This document shows positions 9,941 through 43,934 of a stretch of DNA of 64,000 nucleotides, in pieces (position 1 is the first letter of the stretch; every line of letters begins with the position of its first letter). Position numbers and translations under genes: made by a program. The notes under the pieces are model-generated. The model saw nothing but the letters and a program-made list of their open reading frames with translations, had not been told where the DNA came from and did not search any database. This DNA comes from Nitrososphaeria archaeon (GTDB lineage: Archaea > Thermoproteota > Nitrososphaeria > Nitrososphaerales > JAAOZN01). The stretch lies in NCBI GenBank assembly GCA_029775855.1, contig JARVJZ010000001.1:186001-250000 (forward strand), in the 5' to 3' direction.

Positions 9941-10047
9941 GGGCCTGTGGCTCAGCCAGGTAGAGCGGCTGGCTCTTACGGACGACGTATCCTGCCTTGA
10001 ACGGGGAAACCAGTAGGTCGTGGGTTCAAATCCCACCAGGCCCGCCA
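9941..10047 (+). tRNA. tRNA-Lys (anticodon CUU) with 30-base intron, CCA encoded
   Basis: Folds by eye as a tRNA. Acceptor GGGCCTG pairs with CAGGCCC, followed by discriminator G and encoded CCA. The D-stem is GCTC/GAGC, the anticodon stem GCTGG/CCAGT, and the T-arm GTGGG-TTCAAAT-CCCAC. The anticodon loop reads C-T-CTT-A and is interrupted after position 37 by about 30 bases (roughly 9979-10008), the canonical archaeal 37/38 intron site removed by the splicing endonuclease. The exact splice boundaries are inferred from the cloverleaf; I did not find a textbook bulge-helix-bulge. Anticodon CUU decodes AAG (Lys), and the body sequence matches archaeal tRNA-Lys. Confidence 0.93.
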
Positions 10048-30022: not shown

Positions 30023-30093
30023 TCTAACTACCCTTACTCTAAGTTAGCTGTGAAGACACTACTCTTTAAGCATTTTCCTTAGCAACATGTAAA

Positions 30094-30213
30094 GGCGCCG
30101 GCACCGCCGATTCGCGAAGCCTTGCGGACTTCACTAAAGCGGCGGCGACACACGGTTTGACTTCTGGGTTCGGAATGAGACCAGGTCGGACCCGTGTGCT
30201 ATGGCCGGCTGGC
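30094..30213 (-). rRNA. rrf: 5S ribosomal RNA
   Basis: On the minus strand a ~120-base segment contains the 5S core CATTCCGAACCCAGAAGTCA (helix III/loop region), CACACGGGTCCGACC, and GCGAATCGGCGGTGCCGGC. The ends pair as helix I: GCCGGC at 30204-30209 with GCCGGC at 30097-30102. The gene stands alone; no 16S, 23S or tRNA gene flanks it, as in many crenarchaea and thaumarchaea where 5S is unlinked. Exact ends are estimated within a few bases. Confidence 0.88.
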
Positions 30214-43632: not shown

Positions 43633-43731
43633 TGGTGGACCGGGGGGGATTCGAACCCCCGACCTCCCGCGTGCGAGGCGGGCGTCTGCACCAGCCACAG
43701 CAGACTGCTCATACCACTGAACTACCGGCCC
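43633..43731 (-). tRNA. tRNA-Ala (anticodon CGC) with non-canonical intron near position 25/26, CCA encoded
   Basis: On the minus strand: acceptor GGGCCGG/CCGGTCC, discriminator A and CCA; D-stem GTTC/GAGC; T-arm GGGGG-TTCGAAT-CCCCC; and anticodon arm CCCGC-CTCGCAC-GCGGG with anticodon CGC (decodes GCG, Ala). Between the D-stem and the anticodon stem lie about 23 extra bases (roughly 43684-43706) that can fold with GTCTGC pairing GCAGAC. Removing them gives a 76-base tRNA with one base at position 26. This is an archaeal non-canonical intron site. Boundaries are uncertain by a base or two. Confidence 0.9.
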
Positions 43732-43742
43732 ACTTAAACAAG

Positions 43743-43825
43743 GCCTCGGGACTAGAGCGCAACCCAACATATATTCTTCATCCCAGAGGCGTGGTCAGAT
43801 CGCCCGTCGTAACGTTGGGCTGCGC
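43743..43825 (-). ncRNA. predicted pseudoknotted RNA upstream of tRNA-Ala
   Basis: Two long interleaved helices: 12 pairs between GCGCAGCCCAAC (43825-43814) and GTTGGGTTGCGC (43768-43757), and 9 pairs with one bulge between GCCTCTGGGA (43790-43781) and TCCCGAGGC (43751-43743). The order is 1-2-1'-2', so it is a pseudoknot. Helix 1 pairs fully only in the minus-strand RNA, where one position is G-U; the plus-strand copy has A-C. A TATA-like box (43845-43853) lies about 25 bases upstream, and tRNA-Ala starts 12 bases downstream. I do not recognise a known family. Confidence 0.45.
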
Positions 43826-43843
43826 ATCTCCCCCTTTTACCCC

Positions 43844-43853
43844 ATTACTATAA
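43844..43853 (-). promoter_or_regulatory. TATA-like box upstream of the pseudoknotted RNA and tRNA-Ala
   Basis: ATTATAGTAA on the minus strand, centred about 25 bases from the first paired base of the structured RNA. No closer TATA-like element precedes tRNA-Ala, which suggests a joint transcript. Confidence 0.4.
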
Positions 43854-43934
43854 TCAGTTCAAGCATATTACAGTTACCAAACCCATTCTTCCATCCACCA
43901 CACAAGCACTACTCTATTATAACCATCATAAAAG

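Follow-up and report, generated by a model that had tools for sequence, protein, structure and literature searches.

A conserved minus-strand RNA ahead of tRNA-Ala in Nitrososphaerales: a probable permuted box C/D guide for 16S rRNA position C1402

Introduction

On the minus strand of the 64,000-nucleotide stretch of archaeal DNA analyzed here (the window), a short element that can fold back on itself stands directly ahead of a tRNA-Ala gene, which raises the question of what kind of RNA it encodes. An earlier note, written from the letters of the window, had proposed a compact pseudoknot of two interleaved helices, with a TATA-like box of its own and release at the tRNA side by RNase P, and had left the choice between a new small RNA, a leader regulating the tRNA, and a ribozyme. 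Based on comparison with relatives we favor a different reading, to which we assign a probability of about 0.8: the element would encode a permuted box C/D guide with one kink-turn for the 2'-O-methylation of C1402 (E. coli numbering) in 16S rRNA, and in the lineage of the window this guide would be excised from a tRNA-Ala precursor. Coordinates refer to the minus strand of the window unless stated otherwise.

Results

Distribution of the small RNA

Positions 43757-43826 can be folded into a 12-bp closing helix. A DNA search of 100 relatives recovered the element in two congeners and its loop alone in one genome of another family, and many more copies were recovered when 400 genomes of the order were searched with a tolerant pattern. 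Some pattern matches were discarded: those at L044, L061, L065, L070, L079 and L080 are chance occurrences without stem or box C, and four bacterial matches to the DNA pattern (L008, L009, L011, L012) also look like chance, about one being expected in 257 Gb by our own estimate, and more if the DNA is rich in G+C. A covariance model (R1) derived from ten sequences of four other families, with the genus of the window left out, has the element as its sole match in the 64 kb (E = 1.2e-10, 43757-43826); the core of the RNA, from closing helix to closing helix, spans 43758-43824. Matches to R1 occur in 226 of 250 genomes of the order Nitrososphaerales, and in 187 of the 202 good ones; among the matches listed, all but two genomes have a single copy. 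With a second model (R2) the RNA was found in four further families of the class (E to 2e-13), and family f19 gave no match in the same search.

No Rfam covariance model reached its gathering score with the small RNA (best E 3.8, unrelated), and no previous description was found in the openly accessible literature searched. The Rfam comparison, like the covariance modeling of relatives, had been suggested in the earlier note, whose proposal of a new minus-strand small RNA just upstream of tRNA-Ala holds: this RNA is real, conserved, previously uncatalogued, and a neighbor of the tRNA-Ala gene.

Closing helix and covariation

The first of the two helices originally drawn, GCGCAGCCCAAC/GTTGGGTTGCGC, is present in the window as a pairing of 43825-43814 with 43768-43757; the arms modeled across relatives are CGCAGCCCAAC on the 5' side (43814-43824) and GTTGGGTTGCG on the 3' side (43758-43768). 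In a sample of 44 aligned members, corresponding to 43 distinct rows, 97.9% of the cells of this helix are paired, and double (compensatory) changes are found at all 11 of the 11 modeled pairs, a result as high as which was obtained in 0 of 500 shuffles. For the modeled structure overall, 14 of 15 pairs have double changes, with 157 cells versus 41 in the shuffles, and the signal is seen at slide 0 only. The helix is therefore genuine, as had been proposed. Its cells include 40 G-U or U-G pairs, each of which would read as an A-C mismatch in a plus-strand RNA, versus 9 that are unpaired, so that the RNA can be placed on the minus strand, in agreement with the argument first made from one G-U pair in the window.

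The second helix (GCCTC/TGGGA with TCCC/GAGGC) did not fare as well. It can be drawn in the window, and a pseudoknot or ribozyme would rest on it, but its pairing score, taken between the stretch of hairpin and box C on one side and the 3' flank on the other, is significant (p<0.05) in 5% of 99 homologs, which is the chance level; against shuffles, p is 0.055 in the window, and 0.75 and 0.63 in the two congeners. The pseudoknot is rejected because this helix is at chance across the homologs, and the RNA has no match to any Rfam ribozyme; we thus give this alternative almost no weight. The 5' arm of the rejected helix consists of what we describe below as the C-stem and box C, and its 3' arm shares bases with the outer helix of a bulge-helix-bulge motif.

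A permuted box C/D core

The near-invariant part of the RNA is not the helix but the loop, which reads CGAYGGGCGAWCUGACC, a short hairpin, and GGRRUGANGA. Read from 5' to 3', the guide is followed by box D (CUGA), the hairpin of the C-stem, three bulged nucleotides, and box C (RUGANGA). In the alignment of the 44 members, box D falls at 43795-43798 of the window, and its C pairs with the G of box C in 43 of 43 distinct rows. The C-stem hairpin CCACGCCTCTGG (43783-43794; CC/GG) has a CG pair that covaries to UA or GC in relatives, and box C (AUGAAGA, 43775-43781) provides, with G43782, A43781 and U43780, the bulge of a kink-turn. The two boxes can in this way form a kink-turn with its invariant C-G pair, tandem GA pairs, 3-nt bulge, and covarying C-stem closed by a loop. 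An alternative description, in which the conserved CC/GG has no bulge, was rejected, since reading box C as RUGANGA gives the 3-nt bulge of the kink-turn.

Canonical C/D RNAs carry box C at the 5' end and box D at the 3' end. Here no terminal boxes were found near the RNA ends, which are formed by a plain closing helix (mostly 8-15 bp in the members); the RNA is therefore a permuted variant rather than a canonical member of the class. As read from the alignment, it is half a C/D RNA in permuted order, with its single kink-turn inside a long closing helix. The earlier note had seen no resemblance to box C/D RNAs by eye; both boxes are present, and were missed by the usual C...D reading because D precedes C. 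Box C deviates from RUGAUGA (it reads RUGANGA) and the second base of box D is variable, both of which count against a guide. At L123, L124, L126 and L128 (family f11 and part of f14) box D is longer by one base (as in CUGGA), but the first C of the box and the register of the guide to that C are kept. Family f2 (five genomes, L056-L060) keeps guide, box D, hairpin and box C without the closing helix; at these loci a TATA-like box lies directly upstream of the guide.

Guide and predicted 16S target

The guide CGACGGGCGAT (43799-43809) includes nine bases, CGACGGGCG, that adjoin box D and form 9 bp with CGCCCGUCG of 16S rRNA, a stretch unchanged in the nine 16S genes read. The 9-mer has one match in the 16S locus, with 0.03 expected by chance, and the energies of the duplex are between -17 and -20 kcal/mol. 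Depending on the lineage, the nine pairs include at most one G-U or end mismatch: in families f3, f8 and f10 a guide C is changed to U and the pair is kept as G-U, while in family f4 and part of f14 the base at -3 of the guide is changed from G to A and one end pair is lost. Archaeal guide duplexes usually have 10-12 bp, and the shorter duplex seen here is a point against the guide reading. As another candidate target tRNA-Ala was considered by eye and rejected, because it offers only 6 contiguous pairs, in CGCCCG, versus 9 in 16S rRNA.

Counted from box D, the fifth base of the guide lies opposite C1402 in the decoding center, so that a guide 5' of box D is complementary to a stable RNA with the target nucleotide at D+5, the rule stated for C/D guides (PMC7994747). 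This nucleotide carries a 2'-O-methyl group in E. coli, human, yeast, plants and P. abyssi (where it is Cm1369), and its methylation is due to RsmI in bacteria and to U43 in plants (PMC11542601). In family f40 (two species, L208/L209) we found a canonical C/D guide, UGAUGA-UAGAUGGGCGGA-CUGA, which has the same C1402 register (stretch GAUGGGCGGA-CUGA) and therefore provides an independent line of evidence for the target. Altogether, the target of the guide is very probably 16S Cm1402, at which methylation is predicted. The genome of the window contains a match to fibrillarin (6e-89); it contains none to the RsmI model, which was found in 12 of 14 control genomes.

The 9-bp complementarity to the decoding center would also be expected of an antisense RNA that regulates translation or ribosome assembly with no methylation. 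We consider this improbable, as it leaves aside a kink-turn whose boxes D and C stand at the exact register of a guide, a register shared by canonical C/D guides elsewhere.

A bulge-helix-bulge motif around the RNA

The sequence around the closing helix, GGG-GGAG-[AUG]-CGCAG...UUGCG-CUCU-[AGU]-CCC, has the geometry of a bulge-helix-bulge motif. It comprises an outer helix (GGG, 43832-43834, paired with CCC, 43750-43748), a central 4-bp helix (5' arm GGAG, 43828-43831; 3' arm CUCU, 43754-43757), and two 3-nt bulges on opposite strands, AUG (43825-43827) and AGU (43751-43753), at which the 5' and 3' cuts, respectively, are predicted. Two 3-nt bulges separated by 4 bp and bordered by helices correspond to the hBHBh' substrate of the splicing endonuclease. 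Two matches to this enzyme were found in the genome of the window; a splicing endonuclease gene is located at G000:C1:250462-250695, 0.5 kb beyond the end of the window.

The motif was counted in 31 sequences, with families f8, f10 and f11 left out. In 23 of the 31 (11 families, the window included) all 4 bp of the central helix are formed and the 5' bulge is exactly 3 nt long, as compared with at most 4 for other sizes of the 5' bulge and 2.4 (maximum 7) for shuffled flanks. When an outer helix with 3 of 3 pairs is added, 13 of the 31 remain at a 3' bulge of 3 nt, versus no more than 4 when the 3' bulge has another size, and 0.13 in shuffles. The sequence of the central helix changes from family to family (GGAG/CUCU, UCUU/AAGA, GUCC/GGAU, ACCC/GGGU, GGCU/GGCU), which means that it is the pairing that is kept and not the sequence. 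Families f8, f10 (Nitrosopumilaceae-like) and f11 have no excess of the bulge-helix-bulge signal, and the predicted excision would thus be lineage-specific. The ends of C/D sRNAs usually form no such motifs (PMC7994747), and circular RNAs with such motifs on either side have been described (PMC7714728; PMC4731332).

In the lineage of the window, release of the 3' end of the RNA by RNase P, as originally envisaged, is unlikely to be the main route because the motif surrounds the RNA. The point bears on a broader alternative, in which the same kind of guide is made from its own promoter and trimmed, or is cut by RNase P at the tRNA side, and the flanking motif is a relic. Consistent with this are a TATA-like box 25 nt ahead of the closing helix and the persistence of the RNA in f8, f10 and f11, where the motif is absent. 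Nevertheless, the sequence of the central helix differs in nearly every family and yet 4 of 4 pairs and an exact 3-nt 5' bulge are retained in 11 families, which points to selection on the transcript; a non-excised guide is, in our judgment, unlikely, though it is the alternative we take most seriously.

Neighboring tRNA gene and promoters

The TATA-like box in question (43855-43843) and the 5' end of the tRNA (43731) are where they had been reported to be. A transcript from this box would start at the closing helix, past the 5' arm of the bulge-helix-bulge motif, which counts against excision. Farther upstream lies a second, conserved and promoter-like box, CTGTAATATGC (43863-43873), which is GTAACYGTAATATG-like in all three congeners and would, if it acts as a promoter, be the only one to leave the motif intact in the transcript.

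Directly downstream of the small RNA is the gene of tRNA-Ala(CGC) (43633-43731), which is interrupted by an intron of 23 nt that separates the D arm from the anticodon stem; in its unspliced form this tRNA is misread by ARAGORN as an unknown tRNA. A second long tRNA, probably also with an intron, is located at 9941-10044 on the plus strand of the window, where it has an Rfam match and was missed by ARAGORN, and a 5S rRNA gene at 30093-30212 on the minus strand.

A tRNA-Ala gene follows the small RNA directly in families f1, f16, f18, f22 and f23, and at a distance of 39-64 nt in f13. In f22 (L188, L193, L195, L196) the first tRNA bases take part in the outer helix of the motif, which therefore competes with the acceptor stem. 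Both observations would suit a structured 5' leader that controls the processing of tRNA-Ala. However, the core is equally conserved in families f4, f7, f8, f10, f11 and f20, in which no tRNA lies behind the small RNA, and the earlier suggestions of a regulatory leader or a ribozyme are thus unsupported; we regard the leader as very improbable, even more so than the antisense RNA.

Discussion

These results can be arranged in a model for the permuted guide. The closing helix would open into a loop whose 5' strand serves as the guide; L7Ae would bind the kink-turn, and Nop5 and fibrillarin would join it. The guide would pair with CGCCCGUCG of 16S rRNA, and fibrillarin would methylate C1402 in the decoding center. 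In the lineage of the window and in many relatives, the tRNA splicing endonuclease would excise an RNA of ~74 nt from a precursor with tRNA-Ala(CGC) at its end, and the freed guide would probably be a circle. It is tempting to see here a new C/D architecture, in which a permuted RNA with one kink-turn is circularized through the splicing endonuclease and one transcript yields both a tRNA and a guide for the decoding center; we put this forward as a tentative proposal, somewhat short of even odds.

If the guide reading is true, it names the machinery of C1402 methylation in Nitrososphaerales, which include abundant ammonia-oxidizing archaea, for a modification common to bacteria (RsmI), eukaryotes (U43) and Pyrococcus. 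It would also imply that a plain helix can replace the second C/D motif of a C/D guide, a single permuted kink-turn being sufficient, and that a ribosomal guide can be obtained through the splicing of a tRNA leader. The small RNA would, in addition, serve as an RNA marker of the order, present in a single copy in nearly all of its members.

Among known systems, bacterial RsmI, the 2'-O-methyltransferase of 16S C1402, produces the modification predicted here; it is, however, a stand-alone protein, with no match in the genome of the window. The same target nucleotide is selected by the D+5 rule in the canonical archaeal C/D sRNA of f40 (L208/L209) and in eukaryotic U43 (human Cm1703). These RNAs have the order C, guide, D with a terminal C/D kink-turn, whereas the small RNA described here has only an internal D/C pair and a plain closing helix. 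Functional RNAs freed via bulge-helix-bulge motifs are represented by the circular SRP RNA of Thermoproteus and by circular tRNA introns (PMC7994747; PMC4731332), which are not C/D guides; in our case circularization is a prediction. Also close are the C/D RNAs of archaeal pre-tRNA-Trp introns (sR50 and relatives), which are C/D guides too and reside in a part of a tRNA precursor bordered by a bulge-helix-bulge motif. Weak R2 matches outside the order (E 1e-3 to 0.08), which were left out of the member count, appear to include RNAs of this type: L187 and L197 lie inside intron-bearing tRNA genes according to Rfam, with a tRNA-Trp reading by eye, and L200, L201 and L203 are probably of the same type. 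The core CUGACC..GGGAUGANGA, or a sequence very similar to it, is found in all five, and this common D-C core supports our reading of the boxes. The sR50-type RNAs nonetheless differ from the small RNA in both place and target, as they reside inside the tRNA and guide positions of tRNA-Trp, while the small RNA precedes tRNA-Ala and has its complement in 16S rRNA.
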